IMG/VR virus record: IMGVR_UViG_3300032132_000010
Location: 1-50,683 of that record
DNA length: 50,683 nt
Source: a virus
Reading direction: 5' to 3' (one strand)
Part shown: in pieces, positions 19,991 through 32,676 of the stretch
Layout of the letters: each line of letters begins with the position of its first letter
Position numbering within the stretch: the stretch's first letter is position 1
Notes under the pieces: model-generated
The model's database searches: none
Seen by the model: only the letters and a program-made list of their open reading frames with translations
What the model was told of the DNA's origin: nothing
Translations under genes and position numbers: made by a program

Positions 19991-22900
19991 CGATCAACGT
20001 CCCAGCGTCAACGGGCGGCGACGGCGACGAGCAGCCCCAGCCCCAGCAGCAGCCCCAGCAGCAACAGGCACCACCGCGCCCGTCTGAGTCCCTGTCGAGG
20101 GACTTGCTCCGTCACGACGGGCCGCTCGCGCGCTTCGGGGAGAACGTGGCCCCCCCGCCCAGCTTCCGGGGGCCGGTCGACAACCTGATGGCGCACTACC
20201 GCGAGCGCGAGGCCGCGATGCAGCGGGCCGCGATGGTCGCCGCGAACAACGACCCCGACGAGTACGCCAAGGGGCTCACCATCGGCAAGCTGCTGGGGAT
20301 GCCCTCCTCAGAGGCGGGCCACAGCGCCGCGAAGTACGGCTCGCCGCTGTTCTTCCACCAGCTCGAGCACGACCTCCGGGCGATGGATCACAACCGGCCG
20401 CAGCTGGCCGCATGGCTGCGGAACGTCGACAACGCCGCGGTGTCCAGCGACGACCTGGACACGCTGGAGAAGCTGCACGACTCCATCGTGTTCGCGGGCA
20501 AGGAGCGGTCCTGGTTCGGTGAGATGTGGGAGGCCGGCGAGAACGGCCTCGTCGGCGTCCAGGCCAGCTACTACCACCTGGCGGGCCTCAAGGGGATGAT
20601 CGACCTCCAGGCCGCGGCCGAGGGTGCCGCCGACGCCAACCGGCGCATCCGCGAGTCCCGCGAGGGGCAGAGCATCGGCGTCCAGCGGTACTTCCAGCGG
20701 GTCGGGCGCGCCAAGGGTGCCCTCGACACCCTCATGGTGGCCTTCTCGGACCCGTCGAACCTCGGGATCATGATGGCGGACAGCCTCGGGTTCTCGGCCC
20801 CGTCGCTGGTTATGGCGGCGGCCGTTGGCAAGGCGGGCGCGGTTGGCGGGACCGCGCTCGGGACGGCGACGGGGCTCGCTCCGGTGGCCGCGGGGTTCGC
20901 GGTCGCTGGCGGTCTGGCGGGGGCGGCCGTTGGCGCGATGGCCGGCGGGACCTTCGTCGAGATGGGCGCGTGGATCAACCAGACCATCGAGGAGACGATC
21001 GACCCGACCACCGGCAAGGCATACGACATCACGGACGCCGACAGCCTGTTCCGGGCCTACTCCAACACGGCGCTGATGGAGCGGGCGCAGGCCGAAGGGC
21101 TCCGCAAGGGGCTCACGATCGGGGCCGTCGACGCCGCCTCGATCTTCCTCGGTGGGCGCTTCCTGCGGGCCGCTGCGGGCAAGGGGCGGCTGGCGAAGGT
21201 CGCCGCCTACGGCAAGGAGGGCGTCACTCAGGGCGCGATGGAGGGCGCTGGGGAGGGCTCCAGCCTGCTCGCCGTGGCCGGCGGCGATGTCCTCAACTGG
21301 ACCGAGGACGACTGGGCGGAATGGCGCAAGCAGATGGCGATCGAGAGCGCGGTGAGCCTCGGCCCCGAGGCGGGCCATGTCCTCATCGGCTACCTCGCCA
21401 GGAAGCCCCTGGACGCCCGCGAGCGCAAGATGGAGCGCGTCGGCAAGGCGCTTCAGGCCGAGCAGAACCTCGGGGCGCTGCTGGCCGCGGGCGAAGCCTA
21501 CGCCGACTCCAAGACGGCGGGCCGCAACGACGGCGACGAGGCCGGCGAGCTTGTGGACACCATCGCCAGCGGGGCCGGCGTGTCGATCCTGCGCTGGGAC
21601 AAGGTGACGTGGGACGAGTTCTTCACCTCGCGCGGCCTCTCTCCCGGCGAGGCGCTGGCCGAGATCGTCCCCGGCGAGGGTCCCGGCTCCGGCATTCGGA
21701 TGTACCACGACGCGCACGCGAACGGCGAGATCCGCGTGTCGCTGCGGGATCTGCTCAAGGCGAAGGCGAGCACCGAGGAGTACGCGCCGCTGGTCGCCTT
21801 GGCCCGTTCGCGGCATGACCTCCCCTCGCCGGTCGAGGCCGAGGAGGTCCTGGCCGAGCACGAACACGAGAACCAGGAGGTCGTGCGCCGGTTCCAGGAG
21901 GAGCGGACGCTCAACCAGGAGGCCGAGGACATCCGCGACAAGCTGGCCGCGGCCGAGGAGAATGAGGGCGAGGGCGGCCCGTCGCCGGAGGAGATGGTGA
22001 AGCTGCGCGGGCGGCGCGCGGAGATCGAGGCGCGGCTCCAAGAGCTCGCCAAGGGGCGCGAGACGGTGCGGCAGGAGAGCCAGGTCGTGTTCGACAAGGC
22101 GCTCGAGGAGCTGACGGCGGTGCGCGGTGCCGACCGGGACATCGGTGATCCGCGGGTCCTGGCGACGATGCACACGGCCATCGTGCAGACGAAGGCGGCG
22201 GCGGCCGGCGTCCCCGTGGCCGAGATGGCGAAGCGGGTGGATGTGTCGTTCGTGGCCGAGCAGGCACCGGCCGCTGGGGACCGGCCCGTGGCCCCGGTTC
22301 GTCCGGTAACTGAACCGGACGGCGAAGCGGACGCCGTAACCCCTGACGCAGCAACGGCTCCCGGTAGCGGACAGGAAGCGGACACCGAAGCGGACGCCGA
22401 CCGGACGCTCCCCGAGGCCGGCGACGAGATCGAGGTGTTCGACGCCCTCGGGAAGCCTCGCCGTGGCACCGTGCTGGCGGCCAAGGAGAGCGCGGATTCC
22501 GGCCGCCTCGTTCGCGTTCGATTCGATGACGGCACGGAGGCAATGGCCGCGGATCACGCCGACTTCGCTGGGGCGCGGACGCCAACCGGCGAGACGTACT
22601 CCCTCGGCGGCGGCCATCAGCCCGGACTGTCTACCCCGTCCTCCGTGACGGGCGTCCCGCAGGGGACGCTCATCCGTGACCTGACGGACGACCAACTGCG
22701 CTCCGTCAGCAAGGCGCTGAGCGATCACGCGGCGGCCAGCAGCGGCAAGACCTCCGTCGCCGCCACACGCGAGCTGCGCGCCGTGTCCGCAGAGGCGCAG
22801 CGCCGCAAGAGCGAGGCCGCCCCCGCCGAGACGGACGACGGCCGCGTCTCCTACGACGTCGAGGCCGATCGCCTGGAGCCGACCGGCGACATCGCGGCCT

Positions 22901-25900
22901 CCTACTCCGGGGACACGCTCGCCAAGGGCAAGGTGAACAAACCGTTCACCGAGGACGGCAGCCTGTGGCTGGCGACGGAGGTCACCGAGAACAAGGACGG
23001 GCAGACGGTGGCGAAGGCGTACCAGCTGACGCCCGCGAACGAGTGGACCGGCGAGACGGTCACCTACGACGAGGCGATCGAGCGCGGTGCCGACGCCGCC
23101 GTGGGCCTGTTCCACGGGGTCCAGGTCAAGGCAAAGACGATCCCTGGAGGGGATGACGCCTACGTGATGACGGGGCCGCCGGCGGACTTCGCGCCGGAGG
23201 CTGCCGCCCCAGCTGCCCCTGGACAGTCCACGGACAGTCCCGCGGCCCCGGCCGGCGAGACGCGCCGCCCGCACTACTCCGTCAGCCCCCAGCAGCTCGA
23301 GGAGGAGGCGCGAGCCGCAGCGGGCGGCACCCTGCACCTGGAGCCGCTGGAGGCGTTCCCGCACCCGCACCTCGCCGGGCTCGCCAGCGTCCTCGCGTCG
23401 ATGGGCGACGAGGCCCCCGTCGTGACCTACGACCGCGGAGTTCTGAATCCGACCGTGGCAGATGACGATCGGTTCCGCGAGAAGTTCGACCTGATCGAGC
23501 GGTTCGTAGGAGAGGGGGCCGACGCGGCCATCCCCGCGATCGAGGACGAGCCCGAGGTGGAGGTGGTGCCGGACGACGAGTTCGAGGCCGAGGACCCGCC
23601 GAAGAACGCCAAGCCGCTGGCCGATGAGCCCACCGAGGGGGGCAACCCCGTCAAGGAGTTCCTGGAGGGCTTGGTCGACAAGGCGAACGAGGTGCTGGGG
23701 CCGCCGCCCAGTCAGGAGGAGGGGGCGACACCGACCGCGCCCCCAGCCGCGCCGGCCCCCGACGCCACGCTGCCGGATGACCAGGCCGCCGAGAGCCCCG
23801 AGATCGCGGAGAAGGTGAAGCGGACGGTCGAGCTTGCCGACCGCCTCGACGCCCGTCTGGTGATTGGGCACAAGGATGGCGCGTTCACCCCCCCCGCCCC
23901 GATGACGTGGCAGGAGCTCCAGCGCGAGGCCGCGACCTACTTCGGCGGGACGCAGGCCGAGGGCGCGTTCACCTCCCAAGACCTCGCCAACGCCACGGAG
24001 TTCTGGCTGAACCGGCGCATCGCCCGCTACCCGAACCCCGAGGCGCTGCGGTTTGAGGACTGGGTTGCGCTCGTCCGCAGCTGGAGCGAGCTGATCCCCA
24101 CGCAGACGCGGCGCACCGACGACAAGGTGAAGTTCCAGCAGTTCAGCACCCCGTCCGAGTACGCGGCCGTGATCGCGTGGGTTGCCAACGTGACGGCCGA
24201 GGACGTCGCGCTCGAGCCGTCCGCGGGCACGGGCAACATCGCGGCCCACGCCAAGGTCCGAGGCGCGGCGGTGGTCGCCAACGAGATCGACCCGATGCGC
24301 GCGGCGCTGCTGCGCGCGTTGGAGATCCCGGTGATCTACAACGAGAACGCCGAGCAGATCAGCAACATCCTCCCCGACATCAACCCGACCGTCGTGGTCA
24401 TGAACCCGCCGTTCAGCTCCTCGGGAACGCGGAACAAGAAGGACACGATGATCGGCTCGCAGCACATCGACCAAGCCCTCAAGATGCTGCGCCCCGGTGG
24501 CCGACTTGTGGCGATCGTGGGCGGCGGGCAGGCCCGGAAGGGCACAGGGCGCACAGGGATGGCGTTTGAGGCGTCCAGCTTCCGCGGATGGTGGAAGCGG
24601 ACCATGGACACCTACACCGTCCGCGCTAACGTAGGGGTGGCCGGCAAGGTCTACAGCCGCCTCGGGACCAGCTTCCCGACCCGCGTCCTGGTGATCGACA
24701 AGACCGGCCCGACAGCCAACCCGGAAAGCGCGCTCGACGTCGACGTCGAAACGCTGGGCGAGCTGATCACCGCTCTGGAGGACGTGAGAGATGCCCGCCC
24801 CGAAGTGGATCGAGAGAGTGGACGCCCAAGCGTTGAAGCACCTGGAGACGCTGGGAGTGAGTCCGGCGGGCGAGCCCCCGACGCTGGTGCTCCTGTCGCT
24901 CGGCCTGGAAGCGGCGGCGGGGGAGTTCAACAGCCCGGCGTACGAACCGATACTGGAGACGGAGATCGCGGACCTGCGCCTGCTGGCGGCGACGGACCCG
25001 CAAGCGGCGATGGAGCAGCTGGGGGACCCGCAGATGCCGCTGGATCACCTGGAGCCGCTGGAGGCGGGCAAGCAACTGGTGGAGCAACTGCACAGCCGGC
25101 TGGGGGAGACGCAGGAGGACTACCCGCCAGCGACGACGCTGCCGGTGCAGCACCCTCCGGCGTAGAGGACACCGCGGCCGAGGAGTCGCCCCAGGACGAA
25201 GCCCTCATCGAGAAGGGCGCGGAGTTCATCGCGGAGGCCGACGACGAGGCGGGCGTGTTCGACACCTACGCTCCGGCCATCGCCGTCAAGGGCGCGAGCC
25301 CTCACCCATCGCCGCTGGTCGAGAGCGCGGCCATGGCGTCGGTCAGCTTCCCCGAGATCAAGCACGACCTCCGGTTGTCGAAGGAAGCCATCGCGGGCGC
25401 GTCGAACGCGCAGCTGGAGACGGCCGCGCTCGCGGGGCAGGCGTTTGAAGTCATCCTCCCCAACGGCAAGCGCCAAGGCTTCTTCGCGGGTGACGGCACG
25501 GGCGTCGGCAAGACGCGCGAGATCATCGCCATCCTGATGGACAACATGAACCACGGGCGCAAGCGCCACGTGTGGGTATCGGCCAGCAAGGACCTGTACG
25601 ACGACGCGGTGAGGGAGTGGGGCTCGATGGGCGGCGACCCGGCGCTGCTCATGAACATGAAGAAGGTCAAGGCCAACACGGGGAAGATCCCCAACCAGGA
25701 CGGCGTGGTGTTCGTCAACTACGACACCCTGAAGGTTGGGGCGCAGTACCTACCGGACGGCGAGGCCATCACGGACGAAGGCAAGGTGTCCCGCCTCGAC
25801 CAGATCCGCGAGTGGCTAGGCACGGAGTCCGAGGAGGCCGCCGCAGAGTTCGACGGCGTGATCGTGTTCGACGAGTCGCACAAGATGGGCTCGGCCATCG

Positions 25901-28900
25901 CGCAGAAGAAGGGCGGGAAGGGGCCATCGGCCACGGCGCTATCCGGCCTTTACGCTCAAGACACGCACCCGCTCGGCCGCCTCGTCTACGCATCCGCGAC
26001 GGGCGCAACCGAGGTGCACAACCTCGCCTACGCCGAGCGCCTTGGACTGTGGGGCGAGGGGACGGCGTTCGGCAACGTGCTCGAGTTCGTGGCGAAGATC
26101 GGCAAGGGCGGGCTCGCCACCATGGAGCAGATCGCGCGCGAGCTGAAGCAGCGCGGGCTCTACACAGCGCGCGCCATCTCCATGAAGGGCGTCAAGTACG
26201 AGCGCCTGGAGCACAACCTCACCGACGAGCAGACGACCATCTACAACCGCGTGGCCGAGGCGTGGCAGATCGTCCACAAGAACATGGTCGCGGCGACACA
26301 GATTACCGAGGGCGGCAAGGAGGCGAACAAGCGATGGAAGGGCCAATACTGGGGGCTCAACCAACGGTTCTTCGACCAGATCATGACGTCGATGGCGATG
26401 CCTTCGACGCTCAAGCAGATGCACGCCGACATCGACGCCGGGCATTCGGTTGTGATCCAGCTGATCAACCACTACGGCGAACGCTTGGAGCGGCTGGAGG
26501 CTGAGCGAAAGCGCCAGGTCGCGGCTGGGGAGATTGATGAGGAGGCGTCGTTCGACTACGACCTCTCGCCCAAGGGTGACCTCATCGAGATGGTGAAGAA
26601 GGCGTTTCCTGTGCAGCAGTACGAGGAGGTGGTCGGGCCGGACGGCAAGCCGTTCAAGCGGCCCGTGACCGACAGCGAGGGCAAGCCCGTACTGAACCAG
26701 GAAGCCGTGCGGATGCGCGACGAGCTGCTGCTCGACCTGGATGAGCTTCGCATCCCGCTCGGGCCGGTCGACATGATCTATCAGGAGTTCGGCTCGGAGC
26801 GGGTGGGCGAGATCACCGGGCGCAAGCAGCGCGTCGAGTTCGTGGACGGCCGGCAGGTTGTGGTCAAGCGCAAGGAGAAGGCCGAGAACAAGGCGGCGGC
26901 CGACGACTTCATGGGCGACCGCATCCCCATCCTGATCTTCACCAAGAAGGGCGGGACGGGGCGCAGCTACCACGCCGACCTCGGCGCGAAGAACCAGCGG
27001 CTCCGCAGGCACTACGTCGTGCAGTCGGGCTGGATCGCCAACGACACGATCCAGGGGCTCGGCCGGACGCACCGGACCAACCAAGCGCAGCCGCCCGAAT
27101 ACATCCTCGTCCAGACGGACCTCCCCGGTCACAAGCGGTTCGTGTCGTCCATCGCGCGGCGCATCGAGCAGCTGGGCGCGTTGACCAAGGGCCAGCGAGA
27201 CGCGGGTGCGTCCCTGTTCACCGAAGCGGACAACCTCGAGGGCGCATACGGCAACCCCGCGGTGCGCCAGTTCATCAACAACATCGTCAACGGCAGGGTG
27301 GACGGCATCGAGGCCGAGGACTTGGTGGAGGAGCTGGGGATTACGGGCATCCTCACCGAAGCGGGCAACGTGGTGGACGCTAAGGTGCCCGAGGTCCCGA
27401 AGTTCCTGAACCGCATCCTGTCCACGACGACGGACAGGCAGACGGCGTGGTTTGAGGGCTTCAACAACCTGATGGTCGCCATGATCGCGGACGCGACCCA
27501 AAACGGAACGCTCGACACGGGGATGCAGACGCTCCGCGCGAAGTCGGTCAAGGTGAACAGCGTGACCGAGGTCCGCAAGGACGACGAGACGAAGGCCAAG
27601 ACGGAGCTCCTGTCGGTCACGACGACGAACGACAAGCCGCGTGTGCCGTGGGAGCAGGCGCAGAAGCGTTACCCCGCGGATTCGTTCTGGGTGAACAACA
27701 AGAGCGGCTTCGTCTGGTCGGCCGGCCCGAAGCGGAACCGCACCACGTCGGGCGGCAACGTCGAGGTGGTGCGCTCCATGTACGGACCAGGCGGGCGCGG
27801 GTCCGACGTCATGGACTACCAGCTGTCGGGGCACGGGAACAACTGGACGAACGTCACCGACGAGGCGCAGCTGGAGCGGATGTGGACCGAGCGGTACGAC
27901 AAGACGCCCGCCACCGAGGAGACGGACGTGCACCTCCTGACGGGGATGCTGCTCCCGATATGGGACAGGCTGCCGGACAAGGGCAAGGTCTACCGGATCA
28001 CGATGCCGGGCGGGACGCGCGTGATCGGGCGCGAGATCCCCGAGCGGGACCTGAGCTACACGCTGGAGAGGCTGGGCGTGGGCCGGCCGAAGCTGGAGAT
28101 GGAGCCCGCGGAGCTGGGCCGCCGCATCCTCGCGGGGGACCGCGCGGTGCTGTCGAACAACTGGGTGATCCAGGCCGTGACGGCGGCGAAGGAGACGCGC
28201 ATCGAGGTGGCCGGCCCGACGTTCGCCAACATGGACGCGCTCCAAAAGGCGGGCGTGTTCATCGAGACGCACGGCGGGAAGCGGCGATACTTCGTGCCGA
28301 CTGGCCCGCGCATGGCCGAGGCGTTGGAGGCGGTGCTGCTGGGGCGGGACATCATGCAAGTCGGCAAGCCGCGGACGATGCACCAGTCGGTGCTCGCTGG
28401 CGAGTCGCCGTTCCCGAAGCGCGAGAAGCCGACGCGGATGGGCCAGGAGGAAGCGCAGGCCGCTCCCGTGGAGGACGACAAGGAGTATCCGCAGGTTCGC
28501 GGCGGCATCGTGGACGGCCTCGAGGTGGGCGAGGACATCCCCAACGCCAGTTCCATCAGCGCCTCGCTGGGCGAGGACTACGAGGAGGTCGGCGTCCGCG
28601 AGATCCCGATGTCCGACTTCAGCTTCGACCCACAGCAGCTCTACTACGGCAGCCACCAGTTCCGCCGCGCCGAGGCGTTGGCCGAGGAGATCCGCGAGTC
28701 AGGCCGCATCGACCCGCTGATCGTCGTGCAGGACGGACACGCCGATGGGCCGTACCTGCTGGAAGGCCAGCACCGTGCGGGAGCCCTGCACATCCTTGGC
28801 AAGACCAGCTTCCCCGCGCTCGTCGTGCGCGACCTTGACCGCGAGACGATCACGCGCCAGCAGGGCCGCGGCGGCACGGGCGGCCCGCGCGGCGCGACGA

Positions 28901-31900
28901 CCTACTTCGCCACGCCCGACGAGCACGGACGGCGCGCGTTCACCGTCGCGTTCTACGAGAACGCCAACCGCTCGACCTTCTTTCACGAGATGGGGCACGT
29001 GTGGCTCGAGGCCATGGGGGACCTGGCCGAAGATCCCGAGTTCGGTGACGCCTTCAAGGACGACTGGACGTTCATCCTGTCCTTCCTCAACGTCACCAGT
29101 CGCGCCGAGATCGGTGAGCCCGAGCATGAGAAGTTCGCGGACGCCTTCATGTTCTTCGTGCTGGAGGGCAAGAGCCCGTCCGCGCGCCTGCGTCCGGCGT
29201 TCGCCTCGGCCGAGCGGTGGCTGATCCGCCTGTTCCGCAACCTCGACGACAAGGACATCGACCTCAACGACGACATGAGGGGGATCGCCGCGCGGCTGCT
29301 GGCGACCGACGACGAGATCGCGGCGGCCGAGTACGAGCTTGGCGGCACGGGGCTCTCCGACGAGATCCTGGCGGGCATGGACGAGGCCGATCGCGCCACG
29401 TACCTGAAGCACGTGGCCGCGGCCGGCGACATCGCGCGCGCGGAGCTGGGCGCACAGGTGCTCCACAACGAGGCCCGCGCGGCGGCGCGCGAGGAGAAGA
29501 TGGAGGAGTTCCGGGCGAAGGCCGCGAAGCGCGTGGACGAGCTCCCCGAGTCGGTGGTGCTCTCGGCCATGGCTCACGGCACGATGCCGGACGGCTCGCC
29601 GCTGCCCGAGGGGCTGTCGACCATGAAGCTGGACAAGGCTTCAGTGGTCGAGGCTCTGACCGTCATCAGCGCCGAGACAGGGCAGCCCTACGTGCGCTCC
29701 CCGAAGGTGGTCGAGCGCCTGGAGGACGCGGGGGTCCTGACGAACCAAGGCGGGGTCCCGGTGGAGCAGGCCGCCGAGGAGTGGGGCTTCGGCAGCGGCG
29801 ACGAGATGGCCCGTCGTATGTCGATCGCCCTGGACAAGCCGAGCCTCGTCGAAACGATGGCCCAGCAGGAGCTTGGCAACGAGTTCCCCGAGCTGCTGGG
29901 GACCCGTCAGATCCGCACCCTGCGCCGCAAGGCGGTCGCCAACGAGGAACGGGTGAAGCAGCTCGAGGACGAGCACAGGGAGCTACAGCGCCACAGGCGG
30001 GCCGCTGTGGACCGCATCCCCAGTCAGGCAGAGATCAAGGCGTCCGTGCTGGCCTTCCTCCGGCCGCTGCCCATCTCGGCGCTCCAGCCGCAGGCGTTCC
30101 TCTCGGCCGCTGGGCGCGAGGGCAACAAGTCTGCCGCCAGGTGGCGCGTCGGGGACTGGGATGGCGCGGCCGAGGCCAAGCGGCTGGAGCGGTGGAACCT
30201 GCTCGCGTTCATCGAGTCGACCAAGATGCTGACGCACGTCGAGCGGCAGAGCCGCTGGCTCAGTAAGGCCGCCGACGAGAAGGGCGAGATCGCCAAGACG
30301 CTGAACAAGGCCGGCCACACCTACTTCCCGCAGGTGATGGCGCTCCTCGAGCGGTTCAGCTTTGTGCGGCGCTCGGGTCCTGGGCTGGATCGGCTGAAGT
30401 CTCTGCGCGATTGGGTGGAGGGGCAGCGGAAGCAGGCGCGCGAGGTCGGTGACTTCCGCGAGATGGACATCCCCGAGAAGCTGCTCGACGAGGCGTTCCG
30501 CAAAAACTACCGGGACATGACGGTCGAGGAGCTGGCGGACCTCTACGACGCGGTGGCGTCGATCCACCACGTTGCCAAGAACAAGGTGCGGATGCTGAAG
30601 GCGAAGCAGAAGCGGACGCTCCTGGACATCGTGAAGCAGATCGTCCCGACAGTGAAGGCGAGCAAGAAGGCGATCGTGCGCGGGATCGGCGCGCGCAACA
30701 AGCGCGAGCGGGCGATGGATCTGATGGACGACGTGTGGGCCGGCGGCGTGAAGGCGGGCTTCTACGCGCGCGCGATGGACGGTGACGTGGACGGCGGGCC
30801 GATGGCATCGCACGTGGTCGCGCGGCTCAACAAGGCGGTGGACGTCGGGGCCGAGCGACTGATCGAGGTGCACCGCGCGCTGGTCGGGCTCTACAAGGCG
30901 AGCTTCAGCAAGGAGTACCAGCGCAAGATCAACCGGCGCGAGGTGATCGCAGGGCTGAACCTCTCGCGCGAAGATGTGATGTCGATCGCGGGGCACTTCG
31001 GTAACCCGCAGGGCCGCCAACGGTTGCTGATGGGGCTGTCGAAGGAGCAGCTGGCCGCGGTGCTTCAGACGATGACCGCCGCGGAGTGGCAGTTCGTTCA
31101 GGGACGCTGGGACCTCTTTGAGTCGTTCTGGGCAGAGATCGAGGAGCAACACGCGCGCCTGACCGGCGTCCGGCCGCGCGCCGTCGAACACCTCCCCTTC
31201 ACGATGACCTCCTCGGACGGGATCGAGGTCGAGCTCTCGGGCGGGTATATGCCGCTGATGTATTCGGACACGCGCCCGAACGCCACGGAGCTGGACGAGT
31301 GGGCGAGCGAGACGTACCGAGGCTCGGCGCTGTTCAAGATGATGCGGCTCGGCTTCACCAAGACGCGCAAGGAGCACGTGGACCGGGCGCTGCGCCTGGA
31401 CCGCGGTGTCGTGACACAACACCTCGCGGACGTGGTTCACGCGCTGTCGGTGCGCGAGGCCGTGCTCGACGTGCGGCGCATCCTTGGCAACAAGGACGTG
31501 CACAAGATCATCGAGAAGCACTACGGCCCTGCGGCGATCCGCAAGCTGAACCACTGGGTGACCGACGTCGCGGCGGGCAGCGCGGGCAGCCGCGAGGGGT
31601 TGGAGAAGGTGCTCGCGTACCTGCGCTACGGCACGGTGATCGCGCGCCTCGGGTTCCGCCTCGTCTCGGCCCTGAAACAGTGGTACGGGCTGCGCGCAAC
31701 CGTCGTCCGCATCGGTGACACGCCGGCCGAGGGCGCGCACTGGATCGGCGTGGGCGTCAAGCGGTGGCTGTTCCACCACAAGGGGTCGGCCGTCGACACG
31801 CCCGCGTGGGTGATGAGCGTCAGTTCCTTCATGAAGGGGCGACTGAACGGATCGTTCCAGCGCGAGCTGAACGAGATGCGCCAGGAGGTGCAGCGCGAGT

Positions 31901-32676
31901 TCATGAACGCCGCGAACGAGTACGCCTTCTGGATGCTGGCGCGGATGCAGTTCGGTGCCGACCTGATTACGTGGCTCGCGCAGTACGAAAAGACGATGAG
32001 CGAGATGGGCGCGGGCGTCGACCTCAAGGAGTGGGAGGCCGAGGCGATCCAGCGGGCGGACCAGGCGGTGAAGGACACGCAGGGCGGCGGCCAGTCGGTC
32101 GACCTGTCGTGGTGGGAGCGTGGCAACCCATTGCTCCGTGTGCTCACCACGTTCTTCACCGACGCCGGGATCAAGTTCAACCTCACGCGGCTGTCCGCGC
32201 AGCGCCGTAGCTTCAAGGGTGGGACGCCCTACGAGAACGGCATCGAGTACGCGCGTTTCCTCGCGGACCTGTCGATCCTCTACTTCACGACGCCCGCCGT
32301 CGTGGCGCTGGCCGCCATGGCTGGGCTCGGGGATGACGACGATCCCGACGAGATCATGGAGCGGTTCATCCGCATGGGCTTCGGGGAGATGGCCGACATG
32401 GTGCCGATCTTGCGCGAGGCGTCGGGGCCGATTCAGGGCTACCCGTACCGCGGGCCGGCGGGCTTGGGTGCGGTGCAGACCGGCATCGCCATGTCGCAGC
32501 AGATCGGACAGGGCAAGCTGGACAAGGGGTTGTGGAAGAACAGCGCGTTGTTCGCGGGCAACCTGTTCCACTGGCCGACCGGGGCGCTCGTCGAGGGTGC
32601 CGAGGCGTTTGAGCAGATGCTCCGCGGCGATGCGCCGAGCGCGCTGCTGGGCTTCCGCGACTACAACAAGAGGTAA
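19987..32676 (+). CDS. Giant DarB-like polyvalent virion protein: N6-methylase-like, Strawberry-notch helicase, ParB-like and metallopeptidase-like domains
   Basis: One uninterrupted 4,229-residue chain starting at GTG. Residues 265-330 are a hydrophobic Ala/Gly segment as in internal virion proteins. About 1385-1600 is an N6-adenine methyltransferase fold, with EPSAGTGN at 1410-1417 and NPPF at 1473-1476. Residues 1602-1727 are a Gly/Ala/Pro/Asp-rich linker. About 1780-2400 is a Strawberry-notch/SF2 helicase: Walker A GDGTGVGKTRE at 1835-1845, DESHK at 1962-1966, GGTGR at 2322-2326, GRTHRTNQ at 2359-2366. A ParB-like domain spans about 2870-2955, with EGQHR at 2926-2930. HEMGH at 3000-3004 with E3048 suggests a zinc peptidase-like site. 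The C-terminal 1,100 residues are helical and virion-like. Such proteins are packaged, ejected and known to counter restriction (P1 DarB). Confidence 0.88.
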   Translation: MTINVPASTGGDGDEQPQPQQQPQQQQAPPRPSESLSRDLLRHDGPLARFGENVAPPPSFRGPVDNLMAHYREREAAMQRAAMVAANNDPDEYAKGLTIGKLLGMPSSEAGHSAAKYGSPLFFHQLEHDLRAMDHNRPQLAAWLRNVDNAAVSSDDLDTLEKLHDSIVFAGKERSWFGEMWEAGENGLVGVQASYYHLAGLKGMIDLQAAAEGAADANRRIRESREGQSIGVQRYFQRVGRAKGALDTLMVAFSDPSNLGIMMADSLGFSAPSLVMAAAVGKAGAVGGTALGTATGLAPVAAGFAVAGGLAGAAVGAMAGGTFVEMGAWINQTIEETIDPTTGKAYDITDADSLFRAYSNTALMERAQAEGLRKGLTIGAVDAASIFLGGRFLRAAAGKGRLAKVAAYGKEGVTQGAMEGAGEGSSLLAVAGGDVLNWTEDDWAEWRKQMAIESAVSLGPEAGHVLIGYLARKPLDARERKMERVGKALQAEQNLGALLAAGEAYADSKTAGRNDGDEAGELVDTIASGAGVSILRWDKVTWDEFFTSRGLSPGEALAEIVPGEGPGSGIRMYHDAHANGEIRVSLRDLLKAKASTEEYAPLVALARSRHDLPSPVEAEEVLAEHEHENQEVVRRFQEERTLNQEAEDIRDKLAAAEENEGEGGPSPEEMVKLRGRRAEIEARLQELAKGRETVRQESQVVFDKALEELTAVRGADRDIGDPRVLATMHTAIVQTKAAAAGVPVAEMAKRVDVSFVAEQAPAAGDRPVAPVRPVTEPDGEADAVTPDAATAPGSGQEADTEADADRTLPEAGDEIEVFDALGKPRRGTVLAAKESADSGRLVRVRFDDGTEAMAADHADFAGARTPTGETYSLGGGHQPGLSTPSSVTGVPQGTLIRDLTDDQLRSVSKALSDHAAASSGKTSVAATRELRAVSAEAQRRKSEAAPAETDDGRVSYDVEADRLEPTGDIAASYSGDTLAKGKVNKPFTEDGSLWLATEVTENKDGQTVAKAYQLTPANEWTGETVTYDEAIERGADAAVGLFHGVQVKAKTIPGGDDAYVMTGPPADFAPEAAAPAAPGQSTDSPAAPAGETRRPHYSVSPQQLEEEARAAAGGTLHLEPLEAFPHPHLAGLASVLASMGDEAPVVTYDRGVLNPTVADDDRFREKFDLIERFVGEGADAAIPAIEDEPEVEVVPDDEFEAEDPPKNAKPLADEPTEGGNPVKEFLEGLVDKANEVLGPPPSQEEGATPTAPPAAPAPDATLPDDQAAESPEIAEKVKRTVELADRLDARLVIGHKDGAFTPPAPMTWQELQREAATYFGGTQAEGAFTSQDLANATEFWLNRRIARYPNPEALRFEDWVALVRSWSELIPTQTRRTDDKVKFQQFSTPSEYAAVIAWVANVTAEDVALEPSAGTGNIAAHAKVRGAAVVANEIDPMRAALLRALEIPVIYNENAEQISNILPDINPTVVVMNPPFSSSGTRNKKDTMIGSQHIDQALKMLRPGGRLVAIVGGGQARKGTGRTGMAFEASSFRGWWKRTMDTYTVRANVGVAGKVYSRLGTSFPTRVLVIDKTGPTANPESALDVDVETLGELITALEDVRDARPEVDRESGRPSVEAPGDAGSESGGRAPDAGAPVARPGSGGGGVQQPGVRTDTGDGDRGPAPAGGDGPASGDGAAGGPADAAGSPGAAGGGQATGGATAQPAGGDAGGLPASDDAAGAAPSGVEDTAAEESPQDEALIEKGAEFIAEADDEAGVFDTYAPAIAVKGASPHPSPLVESAAMASVSFPEIKHDLRLSKEAIAGASNAQLETAALAGQAFEVILPNGKRQGFFAGDGTGVGKTREIIAILMDNMNHGRKRHVWVSASKDLYDDAVREWGSMGGDPALLMNMKKVKANTGKIPNQDGVVFVNYDTLKVGAQYLPDGEAITDEGKVSRLDQIREWLGTESEEAAAEFDGVIVFDESHKMGSAIAQKKGGKGPSATALSGLYAQDTHPLGRLVYASATGATEVHNLAYAERLGLWGEGTAFGNVLEFVAKIGKGGLATMEQIARELKQRGLYTARAISMKGVKYERLEHNLTDEQTTIYNRVAEAWQIVHKNMVAATQITEGGKEANKRWKGQYWGLNQRFFDQIMTSMAMPSTLKQMHADIDAGHSVVIQLINHYGERLERLEAERKRQVAAGEIDEEASFDYDLSPKGDLIEMVKKAFPVQQYEEVVGPDGKPFKRPVTDSEGKPVLNQEAVRMRDELLLDLDELRIPLGPVDMIYQEFGSERVGEITGRKQRVEFVDGRQVVVKRKEKAENKAAADDFMGDRIPILIFTKKGGTGRSYHADLGAKNQRLRRHYVVQSGWIANDTIQGLGRTHRTNQAQPPEYILVQTDLPGHKRFVSSIARRIEQLGALTKGQRDAGASLFTEADNLEGAYGNPAVRQFINNIVNGRVDGIEAEDLVEELGITGILTEAGNVVDAKVPEVPKFLNRILSTTTDRQTAWFEGFNNLMVAMIADATQNGTLDTGMQTLRAKSVKVNSVTEVRKDDETKAKTELLSVTTTNDKPRVPWEQAQKRYPADSFWVNNKSGFVWSAGPKRNRTTSGGNVEVVRSMYGPGGRGSDVMDYQLSGHGNNWTNVTDEAQLERMWTERYDKTPATEETDVHLLTGMLLPIWDRLPDKGKVYRITMPGGTRVIGREIPERDLSYTLERLGVGRPKLEMEPAELGRRILAGDRAVLSNNWVIQAVTAAKETRIEVAGPTFANMDALQKAGVFIETHGGKRRYFVPTGPRMAEALEAVLLGRDIMQVGKPRTMHQSVLAGESPFPKREKPTRMGQEEAQAAPVEDDKEYPQVRGGIVDGLEVGEDIPNASSISASLGEDYEEVGVREIPMSDFSFDPQQLYYGSHQFRRAEALAEEIRESGRIDPLIVVQDGHADGPYLLEGQHRAGALHILGKTSFPALVVRDLDRETITRQQGRGGTGGPRGATTYFATPDEHGRRAFTVAFYENANRSTFFHEMGHVWLEAMGDLAEDPEFGDAFKDDWTFILSFLNVTSRAEIGEPEHEKFADAFMFFVLEGKSPSARLRPAFASAERWLIRLFRNLDDKDIDLNDDMRGIAARLLATDDEIAAAEYELGGTGLSDEILAGMDEADRATYLKHVAAAGDIARAELGAQVLHNEARAAAREEKMEEFRAKAAKRVDELPESVVLSAMAHGTMPDGSPLPEGLSTMKLDKASVVEALTVISAETGQPYVRSPKVVERLEDAGVLTNQGGVPVEQAAEEWGFGSGDEMARRMSIALDKPSLVETMAQQELGNEFPELLGTRQIRTLRRKAVANEERVKQLEDEHRELQRHRRAAVDRIPSQAEIKASVLAFLRPLPISALQPQAFLSAAGREGNKSAARWRVGDWDGAAEAKRLERWNLLAFIESTKMLTHVERQSRWLSKAADEKGEIAKTLNKAGHTYFPQVMALLERFSFVRRSGPGLDRLKSLRDWVEGQRKQAREVGDFREMDIPEKLLDEAFRKNYRDMTVEELADLYDAVASIHHVAKNKVRMLKAKQKRTLLDIVKQIVPTVKASKKAIVRGIGARNKRERAMDLMDDVWAGGVKAGFYARAMDGDVDGGPMASHVVARLNKAVDVGAERLIEVHRALVGLYKASFSKEYQRKINRREVIAGLNLSREDVMSIAGHFGNPQGRQRLLMGLSKEQLAAVLQTMTAAEWQFVQGRWDLFESFWAEIEEQHARLTGVRPRAVEHLPFTMTSSDGIEVELSGGYMPLMYSDTRPNATELDEWASETYRGSALFKMMRLGFTKTRKEHVDRALRLDRGVVTQHLADVVHALSVREAVLDVRRILGNKDVHKIIEKHYGPAAIRKLNHWVTDVAAGSAGSREGLEKVLAYLRYGTVIARLGFRLVSALKQWYGLRATVVRIGDTPAEGAHWIGVGVKRWLFHHKGSAVDTPAWVMSVSSFMKGRLNGSFQRELNEMRQEVQREFMNAANEYAFWMLARMQFGADLITWLAQYEKTMSEMGAGVDLKEWEAEAIQRADQAVKDTQGGGQSVDLSWWERGNPLLRVLTTFFTDAGIKFNLTRLSAQRRSFKGGTPYENGIEYARFLADLSILYFTTPAVVALAAMAGLGDDDDPDEIMERFIRMGFGEMADMVPILREASGPIQGYPYRGPAGLGAVQTGIAMSQQIGQGKLDKGLWKNSALFAGNLFHWPTGALVEGAEAFEQMLRGDAPSALLGFRDYNKR
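24791..25165 (+). CDS. Putative gene nested in another frame within the giant polyvalent gene
   Basis: A 124-residue ORF (MPAPKWIERVDAQALKHLE...), read in the +1 frame relative to the host gene. GGAGG at 24777-24781 is nine bases before the ATG, and an in-frame TGA at 24785-24787 precedes it. Codons here (CTG, GAG, GCG, CCG, GAC) show the GC-rich third positions typical of this genome. Over exactly these bounds the host frame switches to GGA, GCT, GCA and CCT, encoding a featureless Gly/Ala/Pro/Asp linker. Normal host-frame bias resumes just after the stop. This pattern argues that the nested frame is, or recently was, the selected one. The product looks helical, rich in Leu, Glu and Ala, without Cys or membrane segments; its function is unknown. 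Confidence 0.7.
   Translation: MPAPKWIERVDAQALKHLETLGVSPAGEPPTLVLLSLGLEAAAGEFNSPAYEPILETEIADLRLLAATDPQAAMEQLGDPQMPLDHLEPLEAGKQLVEQLHSRLGETQEDYPPATTLPVQHPPA

Follow-up and report, generated by a model that had tools for sequence, protein, structure and literature searches.

The DNA that joins the methylase and helicase domains of a giant viral polyvalent protein very probably contains a genuine, deeply conserved overlapping gene: on the evidence of sequence comparison, one reading of these bases would give a folded, acidic protein and the other a disordered linker between the two domains. The window, i.e. the whole stretch of DNA analysed here, is a 50.7-kb viral contig (IMG/VR record IMGVR_UViG_3300032132_000010, positions 1 to 50,683), and its largest open reading frame (ORF; hereafter the host frame) is a 12.7-kb gene. 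This host frame is a large polyvalent protein with a methylase-helicase dyad, in which a large polyvalent protein associated domain (LPD) and an adenine methyltransferase (MTase) lie N-terminal to a superfamily 2 (SF2) helicase in a single frame. The nested ORF (about 375 bp) sits between the methylase and helicase domains (Table 1) and is, judging from its relatives, almost certainly a real gene that is translated.

A second coding profile in the methylase-helicase linker

The initial annotation of the window had reported a 124-codon frame with its own ATG and GGAGG inside the 4,229-residue frame, normal GC-ending codons in the nested frame and a loss of this bias in the host frame over the same bases, and all of these statements were confirmed. 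The GC content at third codon positions (GC3) of the host frame drops from about 0.92 to 0.42–0.50 over exactly the bases of the nested ORF (0.425 for the overlap as a whole, versus 0.925 ± 0.035 with a minimum of 0.758 in 120-codon windows elsewhere in the giant ORF). Over the same bases the third positions of the nested frame, which are the first positions of the host frame, have a GC content of 0.88–0.93, and its second positions are the AT-richest. The composition over the overlap is a normal coding profile shifted by +1, and the Gly/Ala/Pro/Asp character of the host linker is probably due to a GC3-rich gene being read one base off. That the nested frame is open in the window proves little when taken alone, since it stays open in 84% of synonymous recodings of the host frame (window alone, 68% GC). 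The predicted nested product is acidic, with a net charge of −14 and an isoelectric point of 4.3 in the window (family medians −6 and 4.8).

The putative ribosome-binding site and the start codon of the nested gene are carried by the host codons that end the methylase domain. AGA is used for only one of the 300 Arg codons of the giant ORF, and this codon (24787–24789) falls in the spacer between the Shine-Dalgarno (SD) sequence and the ATG. The TGA that precedes the ATG in the nested frame had been taken for the relic of a gene end; it is the host GTG-AGA read out of frame, and the methylase is encoded in the other frame. Given this stop, entry into the nested frame by a frameshift from further upstream is excluded in the window.

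Table 1. Features of the window and free-standing homologs of the nested gene
Feature	Coordinates	Strand	Basis or remark
Nested gene, +1 frame, ATG start, 124 aa	24791–25165	+	ORF reading, comparison and predicted fold; same DNA in host frame is a Gly/Ala/Pro/Asp linker
Shine-Dalgarno sequence GGAGG	24777–24781	+	9 nt before nested ATG
TGA in nested frame	24785–24787	+	just ahead of the ATG, 6 nt upstream
Host codons L-E-D-V-R-D, end of methylase	24775–24792	+	double as ribosome-binding site and ATG of nested gene; motif in the family, L-E-G-[VI]-R-[ND]
Host frame, large polyvalent protein, 4,229 aa	19987–32676	+	LPD22, MTase, Strawberry-notch helicase and Bbp10-like C-terminal part
LPD22 (large polyvalent protein associated domain 22)	20221–20475	+	Pfam PF18834, E 3.8e-9, above cutoff
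Adenine-methyltransferase-like domain	23887–24786	+	matches to PHROG families of DNA methyltransferases, best E 5.6e-15
AAA_34 (P-loop NTPase pore-1), N-terminal half of Strawberry-notch helicase	25300–26250	+	Pfam PF13872, E 3.1e-94
Helicase_C_4 (Strawberry notch C-terminal domain)	26767–27528	+	Pfam PF13871, two pieces, E 2.4e-46 and 1.6e-16
C-terminal part with homology to Bbp10 of BPP-1 and further podoviral large proteins	28942–32661	+	matches 41 INPHARED records by tblastn, best E 2e-112
Free-standing homologs	L211:2764–3132, L212:5064–5408, L214:5014–5379		profile match
Free-standing homologs	L215:5300–5650, L216:4075–4458, L217:5307–5687		profile match
Free-standing homologs	L218:5060–5443, L219:5186–5542, L220:4898–5254		profile match

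The nested ORF recurs in viral contigs, prophages and conjugative plasmids

The database search of the 124-residue product that had been suggested for this gene matched no family: INPHARED (tblastn), IMG/VR (patterns), Pfam and PHROGs gave no hit, and pattern scans of viral contigs with the helicase or the methylase of the window taken singly returned no relative. The first relatives were four viral contigs with methylase and/or helicase parts of the dyad, picked up with a degenerate nucleotide pattern of the Walker A motif in the helicase. All four, including contigs of 54% and 60% GC, have in the methylase-helicase linker a +1 ORF for a recognisably similar protein, of which the sequence of one contig (L018) covers just the C-terminal part. 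A five-sequence helicase alignment then yielded 80 viral loci, which are metagenomic contigs, and 80 loci from bacterial genomes.

A homologous nested ORF was detected by profile in 100 of 159 methylase/Strawberry-notch-helicase loci, which comprised viral contigs, prophages and conjugative plasmids, and altogether the hidden gene recurs in more than 100 related viral, prophage and plasmid sequences, unannotated wherever this could be checked. For example, on MEALZ_p, a conjugative plasmid of Methylotuvimicrobium alcaliphilum 20Z, it is an ORF of 114 aa (NC_016108.1, complement of 105153–105497; L191:3642–3986) inside one annotated giant coding sequence, and the annotations of both this plasmid and a Methylomonas sp. 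LL1 plasmid show a single giant coding sequence over the region with nothing nested. Outside the alphaproteobacterial/cyanobacterial-plasmid type, nearly every locus has a nested ORF at the same domain boundary, at GC contents of 0.36–0.70 and with predicted products of about 110–140 aa. The third frame is closed by many stops across the loci with a nested ORF.

Among the approximately 100 profile-positive loci with both domains, all but two encode methylase and helicase in a single continuous frame that runs across the nested gene, the exceptions being L107 (assembly gap) and L209 (broken methylase frame). L209, from Methylococcales, has an intact helicase and nested ORF, but its methylase portion is either interrupted or no longer in the same frame as the helicase. 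L107 was considered as a locus with unfused methylase, small gene and helicase and was rejected, as what looks like a split is a stretch of N. The loci examined included no operon with separate methylase, small gene and helicase.

Selection constrains the nested frame and leaves the host linker neutral

Substitution patterns pointed to the nested frame as the constrained one. In every close pair beyond marginal divergence, the fastest-evolving host position was the third in the flanks but the first in the overlap, where it coincides with the third position of the nested codons. When changes were classed by their effect on both frames (16 pairs), omega (the ratio of nonsynonymous to synonymous rates) in the overlap was 0.32 for the nested frame (95% confidence interval 0.28–0.37) and 1.07 for the host frame (0.94–1.22); in the flanks, it was 0.10 for the host frame and 0.80 for the pseudo-nested +1 frame. 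The nested protein is therefore constrained, and the host linker is amino-acid-neutral, being kept open and in register. Rate profiles of both frames across relatives were one of the checks proposed in the initial annotation, and their outcome agrees with its view that the host frame is just a linker here. Together with the homologs, the conserved start and the free-standing relatives described below, they also uphold its proposal of a real nested gene in dual-coding DNA.

The probability of finding each frame open was calculated for 76 clusters at 50% identity. The summed log10 probability was −57 for an open nested frame under synonymous recoding of the host frame and −175 for an open host frame under recoding of the nested frame, both sums treating as independent clusters that are only partly so.

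The initiation site is conserved as nucleotides

At the start site, the host motif L-E-G-[VI]-R-[ND] reads TTGGAGGGNATNAGAAATG and similar, and the position of the start is conserved to the base. A match of at least 4/5 to GGAGG at exactly 9 nt before the ATG was present in 61 of 104 unique relatives. Moreover, the Glu codon of the motif, which is part of the SD sequence, is GAG in 36 of 43 clusters, compared with 22.2 expected from the codon usage of each locus (z 4.5), indicating that the site is kept as nucleotides. In many members, changing AAT-G to AAC-G at the nested start is silent in the host protein, so the role of the small protein could be cleanly tested.

A confidently predicted helical fold without a known family

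AlphaFold predicted for the nested product of the window a protein of five helices (residues 5–21, 30–41, 51–68, 70–77 and 89–107) with a predicted local distance difference test score of 89.5 and a predicted template modelling score of 0.79, and the fold predicted for a distant family member was likewise confident. Profiles of the nested and the free-standing members gave nothing beyond noise against Pfam, NCBIfam, PHROGs, PADLOC and PDB sequences, and fold searches (Foldseek PDB, BFVD and VIA-align) returned generic helical bundles alone, with a best Foldseek E of 1.4 and a best VIA Z of 4.0.

Besides the partial dependence of the clusters, three points weigh against the reading of a single conserved, translated overlapping gene. 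In ten further loci the linker is long and contains a +1 ORF, preceded in most of them by a clear SD sequence, and the small protein is too diverged for the profile; two more loci (L096 and L140) are odd; and the case for translation is a comparative one. The ten diverged dyads (L044, L051, L060, L071, L075, L076, L085, L114, L121 and L131) have a small protein that is either fast-evolving or replaced.

The nested gene is inherited with the dyad

On a helicase tree of 136 loci, the presence or absence of the nested ORF required three changes. Linkers with the nested gene are at least 352 nt long, mostly 380–590 nt, versus mostly 49–298 nt for those without it, so the gene accounts for the presence of most of the linker. 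The loci L099/L100 (linker of 232 nt) and L143/L151 (49 nt) group with or near carriers of the nested gene yet do not have the nested ORF, and they are probably losses with clean shortening of the linker. As the nested gene is also found on conjugative plasmids, it belongs to the dyad and not to virions as such. The initial annotation had placed it in a multi-domain virion protein; the embedding in a multi-domain protein stands, and the term virion proved too narrow.

Free-standing homologs in bacterial genomes

A profile built from nested ORFs alone was run on about 1,060 genomes and found, in addition to further dyad-embedded copies, free-standing, non-overlapping genes in Desulfobacterota-type genomes. 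The nine free-standing genes seen in wider context (Table 1) encode 114–127 aa, match the profile with E values of 1e-17 to 1e-28, have a closed −1 frame and start at the residue equivalent to the nested start; no methylase or helicase was found within 1.5 kb of them. The free-standing family is characterised by the motif LNxLPxNxKAREML...DPxSLYCxQLAxWGxExG and has no Pfam, NCBIfam or PHROG entry. Nested and free-standing members fall on the two sides of a single branch (Shimodaira-Hasegawa-like approximate likelihood ratio test, 95). A free-standing gene may have been captured where the two domains meet, or three separate genes may have fused by read-through, as the initial annotation proposed; the two origins are equally possible.

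By eye, look-alikes of a Ppx/GppA-type phosphatase and of a PAS-type protein neighbour the free-standing gene in four loci, and a rubrerythrin-like ORF does so in two. In one Methylococcales genome (L208/L221, around L221:5263–5682), the methylase-end motif LEGIRND and the nested ORF are kept in what appears to be a relic; neither a methylase nor a helicase was detected within 1.5 kb of the ORF.

Proposed role and alternative explanations

Internal initiation at GGAGG-N9-ATG may allow ribosomes on the giant mRNA to make the small acidic protein as a separate chain, the output of which would probably exceed that of the giant protein. Ribosomes translating the giant ORF would pass the same bases as a flexible linker, with the methylase and the helicase staying one polypeptide. 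The methylase-helicase would be a DarB-like protection machine, which the small protein might, for example, hold in an inactive or folded state up to its loading or transfer. A role as accessory or regulatory partner of the methylase-helicase is favoured by the co-inheritance with the dyad and by the shorter linkers of loci without the gene, and we put it forward tentatively, at a little under an even chance. The fuller picture is of an undescribed family whose gene doubles as an interdomain linker, was captured once from, or was the source of, a free-standing bacterial gene, and serves as a dedicated partner of the methylase-helicase in phages, prophages and conjugative plasmids of several phyla; taken as a whole, we regard it as evenly balanced between right and wrong.

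Nearly as possible as the partner role, because of the free-standing relatives, is an independent one, in which the small gene, though real, acts on the cell in its own right, for example through a captured cellular protein directed at the host, and is linked to the methylase-helicase by shared DNA alone. Chromosomal homologs without a dyad within 1.5 kb suggest that the protein may function independently, which counts against a partner role, and the ORF kept in L208/L221 points in the same direction. An independent role fits less well with the finding that mobile elements (phages and conjugative plasmids) keep the gene at this site alone and have a short linker when it is absent.

Two other explanations appear very improbable. 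Programmed ribosomal frameshifting out of the methylase, which would produce a methylase-small protein fusion in place of methylase-helicase, would be in line with the position of the nested ORF directly after the methylase and with the weaker SD sequence of some diverged members. It is unlikely because 75 of 76 cluster representatives have a nested-frame stop in the 300 nt ahead of the ATG, 47 have one in the last 30 nt and the window has one at 6 nt; moreover, the SD spacing and the ATG are conserved, and the free-standing homologs start at the equivalent residue. An out-of-frame selfish insertion invading the linker would have a precedent in the ShiLan domain, a hidden HNH endonuclease without a detectable ribosome-binding site in a phage DNA methylase (PMC11855218), where a complete ORF is likewise embedded in a methylase gene in another frame, without closing the host frame. 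A hidden homing element of this type is scarcely probable in the linker because no HNH or nuclease family was found among 55 members (Pfam, PHROGs and NCBIfam), the SD sequence is strong and inheritance with the dyad is near-vertical at a fixed site; in addition, the dyad is fused across the nested gene in essentially all members. Whereas ShiLan is a mobile HNH endonuclease, the gene in the window encodes a predicted helical acidic protein and is inherited with its host gene across phyla.

That the frame is open by chance in a GC-rich low-complexity linker, with the dip in codon bias a compositional artefact of the Gly/Ala/Pro/Asp stretch, would be compatible with the recoding result for the window and with the raised first-position GC of another disordered stretch near 22102–22650, but this idea, which is hardly credible, is refuted by the nested omega and the free-standing homologs and is further opposed by homologous ORFs in genomes down to 36–43% GC, by the conserved SD-ATG and by the host GC3 of 0.76–0.82 that the other stretch retains.

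Relation to known systems

The dyad of polyvalent proteins has been described as the P1 DarB type, with a 'Strawberry notch-like SWI2/SNF2' variant in Methylomonas (Iyer et al. 2017, PMC5512222), and the archetype, DarB, shields DNA entering the cell against type I restriction (PMC5512222). The window shares with this type the LPD domain and an adenine MTase fused to an SF2 helicase in a large polyvalent protein of phages or plasmids. It differs in the nested gene: none was found described in PMC5512222, the text of which does not contain the word 'overlap', and P1, including darB, gave no nested-profile match in the 20-kb stretch searched. Apart from P1, BPP-1-like isolates had no nested-profile match in the stretches searched, and no Strawberry-notch dyad was detected in INPHARED at E 1e-10. 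A description of the overlap in the methylase-helicase linker was not found in the openly accessible literature that was searched.

In overprinted genes of viruses and bacteria (PMC8227390, PMC2268670), selection likewise keeps both frames of one DNA, but the overprinted frame is usually a young one that arose de novo within an old gene. The nested gene reverses this picture, as the hidden frame is conserved, predicted to fold and has free-standing homologs, and the annotated host frame is unconstrained. A whole unannotated protein family would be added to the anti-restriction-type machines of phages and plasmids, and a large family of bacterial mobile elements appears to carry an overlooked protein. 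Annotation with one ORF per locus overlooks such old genes inside giant multidomain genes.

Other parts of the giant ORF

The stretch at 22102–22650 is another disordered stretch of the giant ORF. It is Ala/Pro/Glu-rich, its first-position GC slightly exceeds its third-position GC, and beyond that it gave no sign of another nested gene. The methylase-like domain has, in addition to its PHROG matches, a weak Pfam MTS match (E 1.9e-4, below cutoff) and an NPPF motif, read from the sequence, at 24403–24414. Bbp10 of the Bordetella phage BPP-1 is encoded in a structural cassette, and by the homology of its C-terminal part to Bbp10 the giant protein may be packaged in the virion and delivered with the DNA.
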